Origin: Planctomycetota bacterium
GTDB taxonomy: Bacteria; Planctomycetota; Planctomycetia; Pirellulales; Pirellulaceae
Length of the DNA stretch: 64,000 bases
Direction: 5' to 3'
Assembly: GCA_016872775.1 (NCBI GenBank)
Contig: VGZA01000028.1
Location: 1-64,000 of the forward strand
Every line of letters begins with the position of its first letter. The stretch's first letter is position 1. This document shows positions 15,367 to 26,490 of this stretch, piece by piece. The translations under genes and the position numbers were made by a program. The notes beneath the pieces are model-generated. The model did no database searches and was not told the origin of the DNA. It saw nothing but the letters and a program-made list of their open reading frames with translations.

Positions 15367-18300
15367 TCAGTCCGGTGATTTCGTCTTGAGTTTCTGGCGT
15401 TGATTCTCGTTCAATTCCTCCTCGCGGACGATGCCCGCGGCCAACGCCTGCCGCAGCAAGTCCTGGCGTTGCACATTACGCAAAAGGGCATCCAGGGCTA
15501 ACGCCCGATTCTGCCCTTCAAGGAATCGGAGACTCTCCGCCAGTGCCTTGCCGGCCTCGGCGTGGTCGACATCCGCAAGCCCACTTACCGCTCCCATCTG
15601 CAACTCGCCATCGACCTCCCTGGCCAGGTACTTTACGAGTTGTTTCCCTCGCCTGTCCCAGGATGCAACGCCTAACATGCGTAACGCATCGTACCGAGTC
15701 CCCTTGTTGACTTTGGCATCGTCGGCCATTGCCGCCGCGAGTTCCAATGCCTGCCGATAGCGCCCCAGCAGTCCCGGACCGTCGTCTAACAGAGCCTCCA
15801 ATTGCTCGGCTGGCCATGCGCCCGACTGACTGATGCCGTTGATGATTCCACCTCCGATCACTACTGCCTGCCAGTCCCGCAGCGGTTCGCCGTTTCCGGG
15901 CAGCGACATCTCGAGGATTCGCCGGATGGGCAGCGGTTCGTTACGTTTTCCCGCCGCGATCGCCACACGCCAGATCCATGGTATGCGACGGTACTGCTCC
16001 TGGAGATCCTCGGCACTCTCGTATCGCAATCCGTCCGCCAGCGCCGCAATCAGTTCCGCCGCGATTTGAGGCTGGGACTGGATGATCGACGTTCGCTCGG
16101 CATCGCTGACGGCCGGACCGAGAATTCGACGCGCGTAGTCGGCGGGAGTGGAAAACCGTGGATCAATCGAGGCAGGCCGTACCGACAACGCCTTGGTGAT
16201 GGTCGCCCAGTCGGGTTCCCGGCCTCGTGGCTCCAGCACGACGGCTCGCAGATCCAACAGGGCTGGCCGTATCATCGGCCCGTCCGGCCGAAATGTGATC
16301 CGTCTCGAGCCGGCCCTCAGCTTCCATGTCCCGATTTTGCGCTTGCGATATTGGTCCCAACCGCCCGTCCCGACTACGATTCCGCGCAGGGGCTCACCGC
16401 CAGCTTCGAGCAGATATCGGTTTCCTTGCGAATCATTATGGCAGGCGTAATCAAGCCAGACATCGTATTCGGCGTCGCTCGGCAGTTCGCAGGTCCAGTC
16501 GGCTCGATCGCTCTCGCCGTGCCAGAGTCCGATGTTCTGAAACTCCGTTTCCAACGTAATATCGTTACCAGAAATCGCCGCGGACACCGCGGGAAAAACC
16601 AGCGTACCCCGCGCGTCGGCGCGGATCGCGACGGGAGTGTTTCCCGGAATCTGTTTGGGAGGGGGCGCCGATTCGGCAAGGTACGCCAGCAGATCGGCAA
16701 CATCCTGGCGGGGGAGATCTTTCTCCAATCCCTCCGGCATCAGCGACTTGCCGGTACTACGTAATTCATCCAGTTCCGACCGGAGAAAGGTCTGCTCCTT
16801 TCCTTCCTGACCTCGCAGCGTAATACTCGCCGACGATTCGCCCGCCAGGATTCCGCTGAAGGAGCGGCCGTCAACCGTTGTCGCGACATAGGCCACAAAC
16901 CGTTCATCGACCTGACGGCTAGGGTCGAAGATGGATACCAGCAACGCTTCCATCGACCGGTTGGACAAAGCGGCCAGATTCTGCCCGACGACGAACCCCA
17001 CGCCGTCCAGCCGGTGGCACGGCGCGCAGGACTTCGCGAATACTGCCTTGCCGCGCTCACGATCGGCCTGCAGCGAGCCCAGATCGCGGTATTGTCGTAC
17101 AACGTCTTCGCGGGCTCCGGTCAATGCATGGAATTGGCGGACCGCCCGTTCGCGAACCGACTCGGACGGATGGTCCACCAGTCGCGTGCGATGAGCCGCA
17201 TCGATATCGGTGGATTGAATCTTTGCGCTTGCGAGGGCCTCGAGCAAAAGCAGGGCGTCGCGTTCCCGGCGCAGCAATATTTCCAGGATCTGTTTGCGCG
17301 CGGTCGGCGTCGCGGAGTTCCATGCGCCAAGAATGGCGTCCGATGCTCGCGGATTGTCGAGCTGGCCCAACGCATCCAGCGCGGCGGCCTGCACCGCGCC
17401 CGAATTGCGCGGTGACAGTCGATTGCGGATGATCTCCACGCGTGGCTCACTCGCCGGGAGCGCCCCCAGCAATCCAATCGCCGGCAGGCACTGCTCCTCC
17501 GCCAAATCGTGGTCGGAAACTGCGGTCGTCGCCGCATCGATCAATCTGCGTACCGCCGCCTGGCCATCCTGATCCAAGCGCGCCGTGAGTTCCTGTTTTT
17601 GCTTCGCCGATACCGAAAGCAGCTCACGTAATACGGCGAATTTGGCCGCCATCGACGCGTCAGGCACCGCCAGGTGCCTCGCAAAATTCGACAATGTGGA
17701 TTCCGTGCCCAGGGTCGCGCTGAGTCCCACCAGCGTCGGCAGCAAAGCGTCCCGCGCGGCCGGCGGTGCATCGCCAACGACAATCTCCCGGATCAGCTCT
17801 GAAAAATTCTGCCGGTGCAGCGATGCCAGCGCCGCCCAGGTGAGCACACGATCGGCGTGATTCCTGACGAGAAGTCGCGATAAGGGAGCAGCCGATTGTG
17901 GACTGTTCCATGCCCCCAGAGTCCACGCCAACTGCAACTGGACCTGCGGATCAGGATCGTCCAGCATCCGCACGACCGCGTCGGTGACTTGCGTCGATTT
18001 GCCGAGCGCCGACTCCGCGATTCGCACCGCGTGCCGTCGCACGCCTGGATGCGGATCGTTACAACAGGAAATCAACGTCGCATCGTCGCATCGCCCCAAC
18101 AGGTCCAAGGTACAAAGCGCGTGGAGCCGTGCCTCGGCCAGCATGGACGATGCCGCAAGCCGCCGCAGGCCGTCACTCTGATCGAGCGCCTGCCGTTCCA
18201 CGAGCAGTTGCTGGGCCATATCGCGCTGCCAGCCGTTCGACGATTCGAGCGCCCCCGCGAGCTCGGCGTTCGATAGCCGATCGAGTCGCTTCGGTACCAT

Positions 18301-20847
18301 TGGCAAATGCCGCTCGCTGCTGGCAATCACTCGGTAGATTCGCCCGCGATCGTGTCCCGCGCGAACGTCCAGCGCGGCAACCGTTTCGGGCGGGATCCAG
18401 CGTGGATGCTCCACCACAAATCGGTACATATCGACGACCCACAGGCCTCCATCCGGCGCGGAACGCGCCTGCACGGGACGGAACCAGGGATCACTCGACG
18501 CCAGAAACTCCCGCTGCGTTTCGTTCGGCGCCCTGTCACCTGCGAAGGTCACTCCGTCCGGCCGGAGCCGCAAGTGATGGACCAGATTGGCCACCGGTTC
18601 GCACGTGAACGCGTCCCCTTGGAATTCGAGGCCCAGGGTCCGATCGCGATAGATCTCCAGGCCGCACGCGGCGGTGACGCGGCCGGGAGGCCCGGAAAGC
18701 GGATACAGTGTCACATTGCTGATCGGAAACAACTGACCCGGATCGGCATTGCGGTGATGGAACATCGATGTCACCGGCACCGGCAACGCGGGATTGCGTC
18801 GTGAATAACGATCCTCGATCGGGTAATGTCGAATTAAGGTGCTGTTGTCACAACCAAACCAGTCGCCCCAGTCATTGCGAACTCGGCCCTGCTGCGTCGT
18901 ACCTGTCACCGGTTCGATCGATCCCAGATCGGGACGGATACGAAAATCGCGATTGCCAAGTTCCAATCGGTCGCCATGTTCGTTCGTGATCCGGCCGCCA
19001 AACAGCCCGCATGCCCCGTAGATCCACCCATCCAGTCCATAACGCAAACTGTTGACGCGCGCCTGATAGTTCTCGGTGCCAAATCCACTGTAGACCTTTT
19101 TCACCAGATCGGCGGTGCCGTCGCCGTCGCGATCCTCCGCGTAAATTATGTCGGGCGCGGCACAAACGAGCACGCCTTTGTGCCAAGCCGTCACGCCCGT
19201 CGGGAACGGGATGTTCGCCAGGAAAATCCGCGACCGGTCATACCTGCCGTCACCGTCGGAGTCGTCGAGCATTCTCACGCGCCCTCCGGGCTGGTAATCG
19301 CCCGCGGTGCCGGACGGATAATCGTACATTTCCGCCACCCAAAGCTTGCCGTCTGCGGAAAAATCGATGGCAACAGGGCTGCTGATCAACGGTTCGCTGG
19401 CGACAAGCTGCACGCTGTAGCCCGGCAAGGTCCGCAACGATGCAACCGCCGTTGTCGCCGGCCGCGGCATGGTTCCACGGGTGCGCTGGCTGTCGAAACT
19501 GGCGGCGAATTGCGGATTCAAAGGACGACGAACCGCGTCAATAATCTGTTGTTCCAGCCCGGCGGCGTAGGGACCAGGAATATCGAAGTAGATCATCGCC
19601 CCGCCTCCCTCGTAGCCGCCTTCGCGCAGGATCCGCTCGGAGGGAACGTATCCGGGACAGCCGTTGGAGTAGCCGTTGAGCCAGAGGCGATAGCCATCTA
19701 ATTCCCGCTTGAGTCGCAGCGCATAATCGACCACGATTTCCCCCGGCAGGAAAACCATCGCCAGTTCCTTGCCGAATCGCCAGACGCGGATCGGGTAATC
19801 GATTCGCGTCGGCAGCGTCAGCCCCTGATCGAGTCGCGCCAACTGGACGCGGGCATGATGGCCCTCCGCGCCGGCGGCTTTTGCCTTCTGTTCCCACACT
19901 GCGCGCGACGGAAGTTCGGCCAGTGGTAGAACGATTTGCGGGCTGTCGACTTCCGGGACGCTGCGAATCGGCATCCAGCGAAGACCCATCAGTCGATCGA
20001 CCTCCGCTGCGATCTCGAGACCTTGTGCCGAAGCGGCCTCGGCATTTCCGCCGGTTACGCCGGAACTGGGGTTGGAATCGGCGCCAAAACCGACCGATAC
20101 CAGAGCGACGCAGCCCGGGGATTGGCGTTCCAGATGTTCCGCGGCATAGCCTGCCCAATCACCGCTGATCTGATTATCCGAAAGCGTTACACAGTGGCAC
20201 GCATAGTTGACGTAGACCGCACGTAATTCGCCTCGCGGGGCGCGGACGCGAAGCGTCATCAGTTCATGATTGACGGGACCTCCCGGCGTACGCCGGTTCC
20301 GCGCGAAGGTCGCTTCCCCGATCGCATATTCGAGCGTCGATGACCGGCGATCGCGCAAGGCATCGAGCGCCACTTGCACGACCCGATCGCGCAACTCCAC
20401 GGTGTACTGGTCAATATGCTCCTGGTGCGATGGCGGAATCGGTTCGCCAAATAAGGTGGGCGCCGCGTTGCGAATCATCGGCGCCGAATGGGTGTGTGTC
20501 GCCGTCAAGGCGATGCGGTCTTCCCTCACGCCATGCGCCGCCAGGCGGCGCGCCGTGTCGCGCAACAGTTCGTCCGTGACGAATGTCGCATCCAGCGCTA
20601 CCAGAACCGCGGGTCCTCCAGGATCATTGTCCGCTCCGATCGCAAGTGCCTTGGCCCAGATCCGCTGCCGAATCCCCTCGAACTCGTTCCGCCGACCGCC
20701 GAAGCCATTCAGCCGTACCGGATAATCCGGCGTAATGTCGATCCGCGCCACACCCACCTGGATCAGATCACTGTCCCCCGCCGACAACAGCGTTCCCGAC
20801 AGGCCCATCGTCACGATCGCCGCTGCCGCAATTTCTCGGATGCTCAT
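15367..20847 (-). CDS. giant fusion: ceramidase-like domain, PVC-type membrane-bound dehydrogenase, HEAT repeats, cytochrome c
   Basis: The ATG at 20847 follows AGGAG at ideal spacing and gives 1826 residues with a signal peptide. Residues ~25-450 resemble neutral/alkaline ceramidase N-terminal domains (VGVARIDITPDYPVRLNGFG, TATHTHSAP, NYACHCVTLS, with histidines that may bind zinc). From ~473 comes a PVC-type membrane-bound dehydrogenase propeller (LPGYSVQLVASEPLI, SADGKLWVAEMYDYP, PDGGLWVVDMYRFVVEHP). HEAT-like repeats cover ~880-1230. A class I cytochrome c with CAPCHRLDG lies at ~1275, and a jelly-roll-like segment at ~1410-1520 is followed by a helical C-terminus. PVC dehydrogenases are normally ~1000 residues and the ceramidase domain is usually a separate protein, so the join is unusual. 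The frame is uninterrupted. Confidence 0.85.
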   Translation of the reverse strand: MSIREIAAAAIVTMGLSGTLLSAGDSDLIQVGVARIDITPDYPVRLNGFGGRRNEFEGIRQRIWAKALAIGADNDPGGPAVLVALDATFVTDELLRDTARRLAAHGVREDRIALTATHTHSAPMIRNAAPTLFGEPIPPSHQEHIDQYTVELRDRVVQVALDALRDRRSSTLEYAIGEATFARNRRTPGGPVNHELMTLRVRAPRGELRAVYVNYACHCVTLSDNQISGDWAGYAAEHLERQSPGCVALVSVGFGADSNPSSGVTGGNAEAASAQGLEIAAEVDRLMGLRWMPIRSVPEVDSPQIVLPLAELPSRAVWEQKAKAAGAEGHHARVQLARLDQGLTLPTRIDYPIRVWRFGKELAMVFLPGEIVVDYALRLKRELDGYRLWLNGYSNGCPGYVPSERILREGGYEGGGAMIYFDIPGPYAAGLEQQIIDAVRRPLNPQFAASFDSQRTRGTMPRPATTAVASLRTLPGYSVQLVASEPLISSPVAIDFSADGKLWVAEMYDYPSGTAGDYQPGGRVRMLDDSDGDGRYDRSRIFLANIPFPTGVTAWHKGVLVCAAPDIIYAEDRDGDGTADLVKKVYSGFGTENYQARVNSLRYGLDGWIYGACGLFGGRITNEHGDRLELGNRDFRIRPDLGSIEPVTGTTQQGRVRNDWGDWFGCDNSTLIRHYPIEDRYSRRNPALPVPVTSMFHHRNADPGQLFPISNVTLYPLSGPPGRVTAACGLEIYRDRTLGLEFQGDAFTCEPVANLVHHLRLRPDGVTFAGDRAPNETQREFLASSDPWFRPVQARSAPDGGLWVVDMYRFVVEHPRWIPPETVAALDVRAGHDRGRIYRVIASSERHLPMVPKRLDRLSNAELAGALESSNGWQRDMAQQLLVERQALDQSDGLRRLAASSMLAEARLHALCTLDLLGRCDDATLISCCNDPHPGVRRHAVRIAESALGKSTQVTDAVVRMLDDPDPQVQLQLAWTLGAWNSPQSAAPLSRLLVRNHADRVLTWAALASLHRQNFSELIREIVVGDAPPAARDALLPTLVGLSATLGTESTLSNFARHLAVPDASMAAKFAVLRELLSVSAKQKQELTARLDQDGQAAVRRLIDAATTAVSDHDLAEEQCLPAIGLLGALPASEPRVEIIRNRLSPRNSGAVQAAALDALGQLDNPRASDAILGAWNSATPTARKQILEILLRRERDALLLLEALASAKIQSTDIDAAHRTRLVDHPSESVRERAVRQFHALTGAREDVVRQYRDLGSLQADRERGKAVFAKSCAPCHRLDGVGFVVGQNLAALSNRSMEALLVSIFDPSRQVDERFVAYVATTVDGRSFSGILAGESSASITLRGQEGKEQTFLRSELDELRSTGKSLMPEGLEKDLPRQDVADLLAYLAESAPPPKQIPGNTPVAIRADARGTLVFPAVSAAISGNDITLETEFQNIGLWHGESDRADWTCELPSDAEYDVWLDYACHNDSQGNRYLLEAGGEPLRGIVVGTGGWDQYRKRKIGTWKLRAGSRRITFRPDGPMIRPALLDLRAVVLEPRGREPDWATITKALSVRPASIDPRFSTPADYARRILGPAVSDAERTSIIQSQPQIAAELIAALADGLRYESAEDLQEQYRRIPWIWRVAIAAGKRNEPLPIRRILEMSLPGNGEPLRDWQAVVIGGGIINGISQSGAWPAEQLEALLDDGPGLLGRYRQALELAAAMADDAKVNKGTRYDALRMLGVASWDRRGKQLVKYLAREVDGELQMGAVSGLADVDHAEAGKALAESLRFLEGQNRALALDALLRNVQRQDLLRQALAAGIVREEELNENQRQKLKTKSPD

Positions 20848-20973
20848 GAAAGCTCCTGCCACGGTTTGATCGTCCAATCTCATGATCGCAGCGTGCCGGA
20901 TCCGGCACGCATGGTCACGACGCGATCGAGTTTACGGATTGCCGCCGCTTTCCACAATCGACACAATGAGCGA

Positions 20974-21882
20974 ATGCCACAGCGCCACAATGCCTCCCAT
21001 CTCCTGCTGCCGTCCTCACGCACCGGCGACGCCGATCACCCGCTGGCAGATCCCGCCGATCGGCAGCTGCTGGACGCATTCTGCCAGTATTTTGAACTCG
21101 CGCCGTGCAGCCCAACCGCGGAACGATCGGTCGCTAACCCCGTCGAGACGCTGCCGGCGATCGCCGCTGCCTTTGCGGAAATTCCTTACGAGAATCTTAC
21201 GAAGATCATCAAGCAAAGCGAAGCGGGAGCCAGCGACCGCTCGCGGCGCGGACCGTACGAAGTGCTCCGTGATCACTTTCTTTGGGGAACCGGCGGTACC
21301 TGTTTTTCTCTGACCGCGACCCTGCTGCACCTGGTGCGCAGCCTCGGCATACGCGCCGAACCGATCCTCGCCGATCGCCGCTATGGCGCCGACACCCACT
21401 GCGCGATGCTCGTCTGGATCGACATGGTGCCCTGCCTGCTCGATCCCGGCTATCTGATCGTCCATCCGATCCCGCTGACCTTCCGCCAGCCGTTGCGTCT
21501 GCCCACCTCGTTCAACGAACTGGAACTGCGTCCCGATCCGGTCGGCGAACGTATTGAATTGCGCACCTGGTTCGCCAACCAGTCCACTTATCGACTCACC
21601 TACAAAACTGCGCCGGTCGACGCCGCCCAGTTCCTGCGGGCCTGGGATGCGTCGTTTGGCTGGGAGATGATGAGCTATCCGGTGCTGACTGCCGTTCGCG
21701 GCGACTGCCAGAACTACCTGCAGGGAAATCGACTACAGCGACGCGCTCGAACCAAAGTCATCCGTCAGGAGCTCGCGGGGCAGGACCTGCTGGCCAGCAT
21801 TGTCCAGCAGTTCCAGATCGATGCGCGTGTTGCACAGCGAGCCCTGCAGATTCTGAATGCCAGAAAATCGCTGCTGACTTGA
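20974..21882 (+). CDS. arylamine N-acetyltransferase-like protein
   Basis: Taking the ATG at 20974 gives 302 residues. The NAT fold motifs are visible: IPYENLTKII, RRGPYEVLRDHFLWGTGGTCFS, ADTHCAMLVWID and CLLDPGYL. They place a Cys110-His142-Asp157 triad with the spacing seen in arylamine N-acetyltransferases, which transfer acetyl from acetyl-CoA to arylamines, hydrazines or specialised metabolites. The active-site region RGG-C of typical NATs reads GTGGTC here. The frame is open upstream but that part is antisense to the ceramidase-like domain and was not counted. The stop overlaps a possible TTG start of the next gene. Confidence 0.75.
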   Translation: MPQRHNASHLLLPSSRTGDADHPLADPADRQLLDAFCQYFELAPCSPTAERSVANPVETLPAIAAAFAEIPYENLTKIIKQSEAGASDRSRRGPYEVLRDHFLWGTGGTCFSLTATLLHLVRSLGIRAEPILADRRYGADTHCAMLVWIDMVPCLLDPGYLIVHPIPLTFRQPLRLPTSFNELELRPDPVGERIELRTWFANQSTYRLTYKTAPVDAAQFLRAWDASFGWEMMSYPVLTAVRGDCQNYLQGNRLQRRARTKVIRQELAGQDLLASIVQQFQIDARVAQRALQILNARKSLLT

Positions 21883-22582: not shown

Positions 22583-24019
22583 TCAGGCGATCAACTCGGG
22601 GATCACGGCAGCGCCGATATCGGTGAGCCGTTGAAAGCGGCCGCCGTGGTACGCGCTCAACCGTTCATGGTCGAGTCCCAGCAGATGCAGCAACGTGGCA
22701 TGAACGTCTTTCAGATGATGTGCGTTTTCCGCGGCCCGTTCGCCGAATTCGTCCGTCGCGCCGAGGACCGTGCCGCTCCGCACTCCGCCGCCGGCGAACC
22801 AGATCGTCATTGCGCGAGGATTGTGATCTCGCCCCGGCTTCTGCTTCTTGTGCGCCGCCTCCGTCGTATCCACCGTCCGGCCGAACTCGCCGCCCCACAC
22901 GACGAGCGTCCGCTCCAGAAGTCCACGTTGCTTCAGATCGGTCAGCAGTCCGGCGATCGGGCGGTCGACCTGGGCCGCGGCGTTGCGATGTCCCGTGGCG
23001 ACGTCGTCGTGCGAGTCCCAGCCTCCCGACCAGACCTGCACGAAACGAACGCCCTGTTCAATCAGTCTGCGCGCCAACAGACATCGCGATCCAAACGCGC
23101 GCGTTGTATCGGCGTCCAACCCGTAGAGTTTATGTGTCGCCGCCGTTTCCGCGGCAAGGTCGATCGCCCTGGGTATTTCGCTTTGCATCCGGAACGCCAG
23201 TTCATAACTGGCGATGCGCGAGGCAAGGTCCGCAAACTCGGTACGCCCACGCAGATGCTCGCCGTTCAGGGCCTGCACGAGGCGAAGTGTGTCTTGCTGC
23301 CGGCCGCGACTGATCGACGCCGGTGGAGCCAGATCAAGCACCGGCTTGTCGCCACCGCGAAACTGCACACCCTGAAAGGTCGCCGGCAAGAACCCGTTCC
23401 CCCAACTCGTCGTGCCCCCGAACGGTTTTCCATCGCGCAAAACCACAAACGCCGGCAGATTTTCGTTCTCGCAGCCCAGACCGTAGACAATCCATGCTCC
23501 CATCGATGGATGACCCTGGATCGGATAGCCGGTCGTATACTGAAAGACGGCCGCAGGATGATTGTCGCTCTCGCCATATGCCGAACGAATGAACGCAATG
23601 TCGTCGACGTGCTGTGCCGTTTCCGAGAACAACTCGCTGACCTGCATTCCGCACTGGCCATACGAGCGAAAAGAAAACGGCGATCGGACGAAATAGCGGT
23701 TGCCCTTGACCTGATTGGTCTTCACGTTCTCGCGCTGAAATAATTCGCCATGCACCCGTTCCAACGCCGATTTCGGATCAAAAGTGTCGACCTGACTAGG
23801 ACCTCCTTCCATCATCAGAAACAGGACGGAATCGGCTCGGGCTGGGAAATGGGGTGGCTTGGCGGTCAAGGGGCTGATCGATTGGCTGGCCGACGCGGAC
23901 GATTCTGCGCCGGTAACAGTCGCTTCGCGGCCGAGCAGATACTGCAGGGCCACGCCGGCGAGTCCGGCGGTGGTGCCGTGCGCCAGCAGTTCCCTCCGCG
24001 TACAGCATTTCCAGTTCAT
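22583..24019 (-). CDS. DUF1501 family protein
   Basis: The ATG at 24019 is preceded by GGGGAG. The protein has 478 residues with an N-terminal TRRELLAHGTTAGLAGVALQ leader of Tat type. The DUF1501 blocks FLMMEGGPSQVDTFDPK, RSAYGESDNHPAAV, GVRFVQVWSGGWDSHDDV and VWGGEFGRTV are all present. The upstream neighbour is a DUF1549/DUF1553 gene that ends 22 bases before this start, the standard planctomycete pair. The catalytic role is unknown; export by the Tat route is inferred from the twin arginines. Confidence 0.9.
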   Translation of the reverse strand: MNWKCCTRRELLAHGTTAGLAGVALQYLLGREATVTGAESSASASQSISPLTAKPPHFPARADSVLFLMMEGGPSQVDTFDPKSALERVHGELFQRENVKTNQVKGNRYFVRSPFSFRSYGQCGMQVSELFSETAQHVDDIAFIRSAYGESDNHPAAVFQYTTGYPIQGHPSMGAWIVYGLGCENENLPAFVVLRDGKPFGGTTSWGNGFLPATFQGVQFRGGDKPVLDLAPPASISRGRQQDTLRLVQALNGEHLRGRTEFADLASRIASYELAFRMQSEIPRAIDLAAETAATHKLYGLDADTTRAFGSRCLLARRLIEQGVRFVQVWSGGWDSHDDVATGHRNAAAQVDRPIAGLLTDLKQRGLLERTLVVWGGEFGRTVDTTEAAHKKQKPGRDHNPRAMTIWFAGGGVRSGTVLGATDEFGERAAENAHHLKDVHATLLHLLGLDHERLSAYHGGRFQRLTDIGAAVIPELIA

Positions 24020-24041
24020 TGCCGATCTCCCCTGGGGCGCT

Positions 24042-26246
24042 TTAATCGAGGTAAATGAACTCATTGCTGTTCAGGATGGCCAGGCACAAATCCAACCACT
24101 TCGCGTCGGACGGCGTCCCCGAAGCATCGCCGCTGCCGGCAGCTTCCCGCGGACCAGCAACTGTTTCGCTGCTGGAAACCGTCTGCTGCAATTCGTGGCG
24201 CAGAAAACCGACGCAGATCGCCAACTCCTGCGGGCTGGGCGCTCGACCTAGCGCCCGCCAGTACAGCGAATCGATGCGCCGTTCGGCATCGGCGCTCGAC
24301 TGGCGAATGATCGCCGCCAAGTCGTGGCAACACTCATGAGTCAGGCTCCCGTTGAACAAGGCGAGCGCCTGGGGAGCGGTGACGGACGTGCGTCGTAATT
24401 CGCACGACAAGTTGATTTCCGGGCCGTCGAATGCTTCCACCAGCGGATGCACCAGGTTGCGGCGCTGGAACATGTAGATGCTGCGTCGGCATCGTTGGGA
24501 CTCCTCGGAGGCGTTCCAGTCGAAAAACGGAAGTTTCGTTTCCATTCCTGACGGTAACGCCTCGTAGATCCCCGGCCCTCCCATCTCACGCTGCAGTCGT
24601 CCGGAGACGGCCAGCAGCGCGTCGCGAAGCGATTCGGCGTCGAGGCGCCGCAGGGGAGCCCTCCAGCAAAGGCGGTTGGCAGGATCGATGCGCGAACAGG
24701 CTTCCTGTGCCGGGTGCCGCGACCCCATCCGGTAGGTGCGGGAAAGCAGCAGTTCGCGATGAAGTGTTTTCAGCGACCATCCGCCCTGCCGCAGCCGTTC
24801 GGCGAGATAATCCAGCAATTCCGGATGGCTGGGCCCCGAGCCGTTGTTGCCCAGATCGTTCGTCGTCGCCACCAGTCCGCTGCCGAAATGAAATTGCCAG
24901 ACGCGATTCGCGAATACCCGGGGTGGAATCGGGTTATTCACGTCGGTCATCCAGGCTGCCAATAACCCGCGACGTCCGGCGGCAGTCTCCACCAGAGTTT
25001 CGGCACGCTGTGATAAGGCTGCCGACCAGGACGCCGACGATGTCGCGGGAAAACCCGGTGTGACCCGATCCGCGGGATCGAATACGTCGCCGTTGCGCAG
25101 CAGATGGGATTCCGGGACCTTTTCCTCGCCGGCAGGATTGCGGATCGCGACCACTTTGGCGTCCAGTCGCTGCTCGACAACCTGATTGGCAAGTTGGCCG
25201 CGCAGCGCCTCGACCCGCTCGGCCTGCTCCTTGACCACAGGATAAGATCGATCTTTGATCGATCGATCCAAAAGGCTGTCCTCGACAAGTTCCGGCGGCG
25301 CGTCGATCACGCGGGCGATCCGTTGTCGAAGCTCCTGCAGCAGCGAATCGAGTTGACGCGCGGTTTCCTCGCGGTCGCGAATCGCCGCCCCGCGCGTTTT
25401 CTCACCGGCGGGCGTCAGTTCCCCCTGCATGAAATCGCACGCCAGGATTTCATGTTTGATCGGGGCGATGAACGCCTGCAGGCGGTAAAAGTCGAGCTGC
25501 GATATCGGATCGTATTTGTGATCGTGGCATCGGGCGCAGCCGATCGTCAGGCCGAGGAACGCGCTTCCGATATTCGTCGTGACATCATTCAAATAGTCCT
25601 GCCGGCGGTGCTCCGGGGTCATGTTATCGGCTTCCCACGGCCCGAGACGGTAGTAGCCGATCGCGACCAGACCGGCCGAGCGTCGATCGCCAGCCTCTAA
25701 CTCGCCAGCCTCTAACTCGTCGCCCGCCAGCTGTTCTCGGACAAACTGGTCGAAGGGCAGGTCTTGGTTCCAGGAGCGGATGACGTAATCACGATAGCGC
25801 CATAGCTGCAGTCGCTCGGCATCGATCGCGAATCCATCGGAGTCCGCATAGCGAACGACATCCAGCCAATGCCTGGCCCACCGCTCGCCATAGCGCGGGG
25901 ACGCCAGATAGCGATCGACAATTTCCGCCATAACCACGGCGTCCGGACGATCGTCGGCGAGAAAATCTTGCATTTCCTCAGGGGCAGGCGGAAGCCCATG
26001 GAGGTCGAGTGCAACCCGACGCAGCCAGATACGGCGGTCCGCGACGGGAGCCGGGCGGAGTCCGGCTTTTGTCAGGCCATCGTAGATAAAGGCGTCGATC
26101 GGAGCCTGCCAATCCGGGTCGACCACCGCCGGCGGCCGCGATCCGCGCAACGGATCGAAAACCGACCAATCACCGCAGTCCGCTCGGCCGGCAGGCAACT
26201 GACCGACAGCGACTATAAGCAGACCGATGCGCTTCATTGCGTTCAT
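24042..26246 (-). CDS. DUF1549 and DUF1553 domain protein
   Basis: This protein of about 734 residues starts with a short hydrophobic leader ([15 protein letters not shown]). The DUF1549 half has [30 protein letters not shown] and [15 protein letters not shown] mid-section of ~200 residues links to the DUF1553 half with [24 protein letters not shown] and [19 protein letters not shown] motif is the only heme-like site; no N-terminal cytochrome domain is present. An in-frame 15-base tandem duplication adds a second ELEAG at about residue 180. The choice between the ATGs at 26246 and 26237 is open. It pairs with the downstream DUF1501 gene. Confidence 0.88.
25688..25717. repeat. 15-bp tandem duplication inside the DUF1549 gene
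   Basis: CGCCAGCCTCTAACT occurs twice, exactly and head to tail. On the coding (minus) strand it encodes ELEAG twice. Perfect identity and reading-frame conservation suggest a recent slippage event in a surface loop. Confidence 0.85.
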
Positions 26247-26490
26247 GCCGGCATCGTACCAACCGCCGAGGAACAGGGTCAACGACCAAAATGGGCCGAA
26301 TTCGTCGCGACAACGACCAGGGATGCAGAATCAGGAATCCGCGAAGCGATTCCGACCATATTTCGACCGTTCACCGCGTCGGGTACGATAAGTCGGTCTT
26401 TCAGAATCGCCCGTGGTTCCCGACCGGTTTGTGGGCAGGCCGGCAGTCCCCGAGCGCGTAACGAAAACGAGAATTCACGAGACCGCCCGC

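Follow-up and report, generated by a model that had tools for sequence, protein, structure and literature searches.

The window analysed here is a stretch of 64,000 nucleotides of planctomycete DNA. On its minus strand, positions 15367-20847 form one uninterrupted open reading frame of 1826 codons plus a stop, in which the ATG is at 20847, the last sense codon ends at 15370 and the stop codon occupies 15367-15369. The continuous frame described in the first-pass annotation is thus confirmed. An alternative in-frame ATG is present upstream at 20883; the ATG at 20847 is the likelier start because it is preceded by AGGAG.

The encoded protein starts with a signal-peptide-like segment, judged by eye (residues 1-23, nucleotides 20779-20847), and is probably exported. 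It is followed by a ceramidase-fold zinc domain (residues 29-446, 19510-20763), delimited by Pfam, alignment and the fold model. A short linker seen in the sequence forms the junction (residues 447-465, 19453-19509) to a propeller of the DUF7133/TIGR02604 type (residues 466-842, 18322-19452), assigned by Pfam, NCBIfam and the fold model. Next come a HEAT-repeat arm (residues 880-1255, 17083-18210; Pfam and model), a cytochrome c domain of the TIGR02603 type (residues 1261-1392, 16672-17067; Pfam and NCBIfam), a CBM35/CBM6-like β-sandwich (residues 1396-1545, 16213-16662) and a C-terminal region (residues 1546-1826, 15370-16212), all encoded on the minus strand.

In Pfam, DUF7133 covers residues 466-841 (463.6 bits), HEAT_2 covers residues 924-1008 and Cytochrom_C covers residues 1264-1391, while Ceramidase_alk is found in two stretches, of which residues 30-123 form the better (50.2 bits, cut-off 32.1). 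Both NCBIfam models passed, TIGR02604 with 263.3 bits (cut-off 122.2) and TIGR02603 with 114.5 bits (cut-off 68.15). Together with the fold comparisons, these assignments agree with the order that had been read from the sequence at first pass: ceramidase-like domain, propeller, HEAT repeats, CAPCH cytochrome and binding-like domain. Two structural models were used: model 1 comprises residues 28-877 and was obtained from a 47-row alignment (mean pLDDT 90.9, pTM 0.83), and model 2 comprises residues 466-1548 (mean pLDDT 89.3).

The divergently oriented neighbour at 20968-21882 (plus strand) has no Pfam match at E<=0.001; its product looks like an arylamine N-acetyltransferase, judging from the motifs IPYENL, GGTCF, THC and LDPG, which we take to be those of that family. 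A PSCyt2/PSD1 gene (24042-26282, minus strand) overlaps a DUF1501 gene (22583-24064, minus strand) by 23 bases, and two genes on the opposite strand lie between this pair and the fusion gene. No conserved operon or pathway context was seen around the fusion: no family recurred at E<=1e-5 in more than three of 76 neighbouring proteins, taken as the nearest ORF of >=250 amino acids to the left and right of 41 fused loci (of 52 loci, the 11 whose flanks were cut or short were excluded). At four loci (L045, L055, L068 and L071) the fusion gene is preceded, on its own strand, by an extra propeller-HEAT-cytochrome frame without a zinc domain. The two frames overlap in L045 and L055, and in L068 and L071 about 1.6 kb lie between them.

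The model of the zinc domain superposes on neutral ceramidase (PDB entry 2zws) with a Z-score of 39.0 and an rmsd of 3.3 for 386 aligned residues that are 22% identical. A profile built from 41 domains, both fused and stand-alone, matches 2zws almost from end to end (E 1e-44). In the alignment to 2zws, His118, His218, Glu370 and Tyr400 fall on the positions that we take to be the zinc ligands of neutral ceramidase (two histidines, a glutamate and a tyrosine), and Arg186 on that of what is presumably its catalytic arginine. All five are kept in 49 of 49 fused rows. In the 41-row set that includes stand-alone relatives, His118, Glu370 and Tyr400 are present in every row, His218 in 40 and Arg186 in 39.

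The position of the ceramidase nucleophile, which we assume to be the serine equivalent to human Ser354, is occupied by Asn259 in the window gene in profile alignments to 2zws and 4wgk. This column contains Asn in 48 of the 49 fused rows and Asp in the other, and Asp257 is found in all 49. In the 41-row set there are 29 Asn, five Gly and three Ser, with other residues in the rest, and Ser therefore persists somewhere in the wider family. The C-terminal domain of ceramidases (PF17048) gives no Pfam match in the window protein at E<=1. It occurs in three of 60 related genomes, and the window genome is without it; the nucleophile column is Thr in the PF17048 proteins L189/L191 and L190 (two of three scored). 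The ceramidase equivalog NF041649 failed as well, scoring 21.1 bits where 1200 are required. Since both the nucleophile and the C-terminal domain are missing, the fused domain should not be named a ceramidase despite its fold and metal-site residues, and the hydrolysis of an amide or ester that the first-pass annotation had proposed is unsupported as far as the ceramidase mechanism is concerned.

Other relatives of the zinc domain occur by themselves or with a partner, which is DUF6259, peptidase S15 or a part whose CE2_N match lies below the cut-off. In one genome the ceramidase-like domain is joined to DUF6259 (L110:6772-10359, minus strand) and in another to peptidase S15/PepX_C (L111:6212-9745, minus strand). 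Because of these DUF6259 and peptidase S15 partners, the substrates of the family may be diverse.

A sequence profile of the propeller gave no match to PDB chains at E<=10, and fold comparison was used for this reason. The best matches are PQQ-dependent sugar dehydrogenases, with Z-scores of 25.5 and 25.9 for PDB entry 3a9g in the two models. AA12, aldose sugar and soluble glucose dehydrogenases follow at Z 22-25, and lactonases and other propellers at about 20-22. Pfam finds no match to PF07995 in the window protein at E<=1, and a paralogue (L179) is just over the cut-off for this family. When the propeller was compared with GSDH proteins by local HMM-HMM alignment, only 13 columns were aligned, and joint alignments were used instead. 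In these, the Arg-Asn motif typical of GSDH proteins remains unaligned with the fused propellers.

The histidine of the HNGG-type motif is taken here to be the catalytic residue of PQQ sugar dehydrogenases. In two joint sequence alignments with GSDH proteins encoded by the window genome, its column corresponds to Ala596 in the window gene, a placement on which two MAFFT modes agree. The 51 other fused propellers have Ala (37), Gly (three) or His (11) in this column, all seven propellers of the deacetylase/FG-GAP type described below have His, and 20 further DUF7133 proteins from the window genome are mixed, five of them with His. In a tree of 57 propellers, 38 fused rows of the Ala/Gly type and the window gene form a single clade (n=39, support 100/99), and the His-type and deacetylase-type rows are intermixed outside it. 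The His-type rows formed one weak clade (90/76) in an earlier propeller tree, but not in this fuller one. Elsewhere in the propeller, Arg790, Asp806, Met807, Arg809, Glu813 and His814 are among the columns that are invariant in 50 of 50 rows, and such strongly conserved residues argue against a dead propeller.

PqqC is over its cut-off in two of the 60 related genomes and PqqE in the same two (G016 and G033), both of which carry the fusion. The set contains at least 20 fusion-holding genomes, 18 of which have neither protein over its cut-off. The window genome (99.91% complete) gives no PqqC match and, for PqqE, only radical-SAM-type matches below the cut-off. It also encodes six GSDH-type proteins with an HNG motif; for these, either PQQ is imported or it is not used by them.

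The heme-binding motif CAPCH is located at residues 1274-1278 and a distal-type methionine at Met1370. The two Cys, the His and the Met columns are invariant in a 58-row alignment, and all 50 of the fused cytochrome regions compared retain CxxCH. The β-sandwich that follows, taken from model 2, matches PDB entry 2vzp at Foldseek rank 23 (TMt 0.78, rmsd 2.6), the rows above it being mostly long chains with low TM-scores. Its likeness to CBM35 is one of fold only, as the sequence match has an E-value of 0.39 and is not significant; Pfam CBM_35 appears at the equivalent place in two of five relatives scanned, with 24.6 and 22.6 bits, under the cut-off of 28. Cross-matches between the HEAT query and the last 280 residues occur in several relatives, which suggests that the C-terminal region is probably HEAT-like.

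The fusion is real and conserved in many planctomycetes and some verrucomicrobia. Scanning GTDB contigs with the whole protein yielded 48 loci. Over a total of 74 loci (L044-L111 and L194-L199), the zinc domain and the propeller share a single frame in 57 cases besides the window gene, so that the search for the same domain order recommended at first pass was productive. A stop delimits both ends in 46 of these frames, a number that includes near-copies of one another, and L057 is itself a shortened frame. The commonest arrangement, found in 18 frames, is that of the window gene: zinc domain, propeller, cytochrome, CBM and C-terminal arm. The hosts include Planctomycetota and Verrucomicrobiota MAGs. 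At least 20 of the 60 related genomes contain a fused frame, and at least 21 of 294 genomes of the phylum contain a stop-free match that spans the junction, the genome of the window being counted in both. In the phylum sample, matches were scored from query position 1-4 to 820-850 of 850 at E<=1e-100, with three candidates per genome. Eight of the 21 genomes are single-contig assemblies.

An assembly artefact or a missed frameshift at codons 440-490 was rejected as the source of the fusion on the strength of the 46 stop-delimited frames and the eight single-contig genomes. For the junction of the window gene, a missed stop or frameshift, to which the first-pass annotation had drawn attention, is very unlikely given the same order in 57 other frames and its stop-free passage through the eight single-contig genomes. 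The statement that the two parts are normally separate proteins is incorrect where this subfamily is concerned. Two instances of separate genes were seen: a zinc-domain gene neighbours a propeller-cytochrome gene in a verrucomicrobium (L090), and in G049 (L126) such a pair is about 1 kb apart. In two MAG contigs (L057:547-6053 and L091:4231-7425) the homologous gene is split into overlapping frames, a breakage that reflects either sequencing error or decay.

The zinc domains of 48 fused proteins are 31-59% identical to that of the window gene. Pairwise identities of zinc domain and propeller covary strongly (Mantel r 0.90 for 47 proteins; none of 2000 permutations was as high, the best being 0.39), as would be expected of one inherited unit. 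The fused state requires nine changes on the zinc-domain tree and seven on the propeller tree, with at least four forced by starred branches in each; the zinc-domain tree and this first propeller tree do not include the window gene, which is placed by the 57-propeller tree. Because several changes are needed on both trees, there has been more than one gain, loss or exchange of the fusion. A single origin without later loss is unsupported by these counts.

Near relatives of the propeller have a polysaccharide deacetylase and FG-GAP repeats in front, in place of the zinc domain or, in a protein from contig C38 of the window genome, in addition to it. Polysacc_deac_1 exceeds the Pfam cut-off in four of eight such frames (L078, L079, L084 and L089) and falls just short of it in three (L080, L082 and the C38 protein). 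In L074, where the contig end cuts the frame, there is no deacetylase match and only FG-GAP repeats and the redox part are seen. Seven relatives were first grouped as the deacetylase type by a profile built from them, and Pfam bears out six. The C38 protein (L092:6586-13629, minus strand) is a 2348-amino-acid frame and constitutes a second copy of the zinc domain-propeller fusion in the window genome. Here the order is a deacetylase-like part, FG-GAP repeats, zinc domain, DUF7133 propeller, HEAT repeats, cytochrome c and CBM-like domain. Its deacetylase-like part scores 21.3 bits in Pfam (cut-off 23.1) and contains DD and HxxxH motifs recognized by eye. The window genome has 33 DUF7133 matches in all. 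From 20 regions with further DUF7133 proteins of this genome, six proteins with long extra regions were scanned; these regions contain a 3-keto-disaccharide hydrolase in three cases and a ThuA domain in two, one protein having both, and two have no recognised extra enzyme.

The propeller-HEAT-cytochrome order is shared with the PVC-type heme-binding CxxCH proteins (TIGR02604 plus TIGR02603; DUF7133). To this module the fusion adds a zinc-hydrolase-like domain at the N terminus and, after the cytochrome, a CBM35-like domain and a C-terminal arm. With neutral ceramidase (2zws, 4wgk; NF041649) the fusion shares the fold, the four zinc ligands and the catalytic arginine, but it has Asn for Ser, is without PF17048 and has redox domains attached. 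The propeller fold is common to the PQQ sugar dehydrogenases (AA12 enzymes 6h7t and 6jt5, the aldose sugar dehydrogenases 3das and 2g8s and the soluble glucose dehydrogenase 1c9u; Z 22-26), whereas the fusion lacks a PF07995 match and has Ala in the catalytic-His column. The fungal AA12 pyranose dehydrogenase is likewise tied to a cytochrome and a CBM. A 'dehydrogenase' on a plasmid of Ketogulonicigenium vulgare (NZ_CP016593.1; L200) is a distant relative that can be aligned over the propeller and HEAT parts (identity about 27%, covering 54% of the query). Unlike the fusion, it is encoded by a gene of 2313 bases that directly follows a c-type cytochrome gene of its own, and its annotation names no zinc domain.

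In the open-licence PMC literature we found no printed description of the fusion architecture, no joint mention of ceramidase, Planctomycetes and cytochrome c, and no use of the phrase 'PVC-type heme-binding CxxCH'. Searches of the same literature for ceramidase with planctomycet, or for 'alkaline non-lysosomal ceramidase', returned nothing relevant as judged by title or start of the abstract. Protein databases may well list the architecture already. The only published activity found for the propeller-HEAT-cytochrome module in the open-licence literature searched is that of Lac161_ORF7 (AGW45552), a verrucomicrobial TIGR02604-HEAT-cytochrome protein from a cosmid assigned to Chthoniobacter (PMC5342196). 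It released glucose from lactose in vitro with a Km of 1.8 mM, and its authors regard it as a new β-galactosidase family (PMC5342196). As far as its published description allows comparison, it shares TIGR02604, HEAT_2 and a Cytochrom_C domain with CxxCH with the fusion; in contrast to the latter, the three domains named there do not include a ceramidase-like part (PMC5342196).

Taken together, we consider it plausible, with a probability of roughly 0.4, that the fusion proteins are a conserved PVC subfamily of probably exported, carbohydrate-directed multi-enzymes that combine a zinc hydrolase other than a ceramidase with a propeller and a cytochrome c. The carbohydrate direction is suggested by the fold, the CBM-like domain, the deacetylase partner and the sugar-enzyme paralogues. 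The lactose activity of Lac161_ORF7 also counts in its favour, although that result comes from a single paper on a protein produced in E. coli and might not hold for the fusion (PMC5342196). The gene neighbourhood points to no pathway. The zinc domain is a predicted hydrolase (or lyase) in which an activated water molecule or the invariant Asp257 would replace the ceramidase serine. It would remove an acyl group from, or cleave, a polysaccharide or glycoconjugate to which the CBM35-like domain binds, and the propeller would bind and process the same sugar next door. In lineages with an intact propeller active site, the tethered cytochrome c would accept the electrons of the propeller, while its role in the clade of the window gene may be reduced or altered. 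The HEAT arms would act as spacers or docking surfaces.

The first-pass annotation had proposed a single surface enzyme in which an amide or ester is hydrolysed and electrons are extracted from the product. The combination of hydrolase and redox parts in one enzyme stands, being consistent with the single chain, the signal-peptide-like start and the co-divergence. The proposed chemistry does not follow, because for each model enzyme the window gene lacks a decisive residue. In particular, PQQ-type electron extraction is not borne out in its clade, where the His column is Ala/Gly in 39 of 39 rows; the window genome itself has PqqE below cut-off and no PqqC match. Some hydrolysis or oxidation is possible, with another cofactor or with imported PQQ. 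An amidase or esterase joined to a working PQQ-type dehydrogenase, so that the hydrolysis product is oxidised and its electrons leave via the cytochrome, appears unlikely. It would suit the domain order and co-divergence, the CxxCH kept in 50/50 regions and the His kept in 11/51 fused propellers and in 7/7 of the deacetylase/FG-GAP type, but it is opposed by the replaced Ser nucleophile, by Ala or Gly in the His column of 40/51 other fused propellers and Ala in that of the window gene, and by the 18 fusion-holding genomes without PqqC and PqqE over cut-off.

It is also conceivable, but doubtful, that the propeller module itself cleaves glycosides in the manner of Lac161_ORF7, perhaps via a 3-keto sugar, and that the zinc domain deacylates the substrate first or finishes the cleavage. 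The release of glucose from lactose by that protein and the paralogues fused to 3-keto-disaccharide hydrolase agree with such a role. The 3-keto step, on the other hand, is our own inference, the term being absent from the main text of the paper, carry-over of host β-galactosidase is a caveat on the lactose assay and the glucose may have been released either by hydrolysis or by oxidation-assisted cleavage (PMC5342196). The active sites may moreover differ among clades.

The proteins might alternatively represent a new class of oxidative polysaccharide machine, composed of an Asn-type ceramidase-fold zinc hydrolase or lyase, a sugar-oxidising propeller and a tethered cytochrome c that act in tandem on a single chain. 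Deacetylase and zinc front ends would be swappable or additive, and the Ala/Gly clade would use another cofactor or chemistry. We regard this proposal as speculative and would not expect it to hold in full.

Unlikely, too, is that the zinc domain is the sole catalyst and that in the Ala/Gly clade the propeller, HEAT arms and cytochrome form a binding, electron-storage or scaffold part. The grouping of all Ala/Gly fused propellers in one 39-row clade (100/99) with invariant zinc ligands fits such a division of labour, but the other propeller columns invariant in 50/50 rows and the retained heme motif are unlike a decaying part. That the protein is a genuine ceramidase or lipid amidase mounted on an electron-transfer scaffold, as the Pfam and fold matches would suggest, is highly improbable given the absent Ser, the absent PF17048 and the NF041649 score of 21.1 against 1200 bits.

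For the fused proteins, the database name 'ceramidase' is misleading. DUF7133 is a family of unknown function in Pfam, yet it has 33 matches in the window genome alone. The swapping of hydrolases on one redox module, together with a Ser-less zinc domain, provides testable handles on the role of this module.
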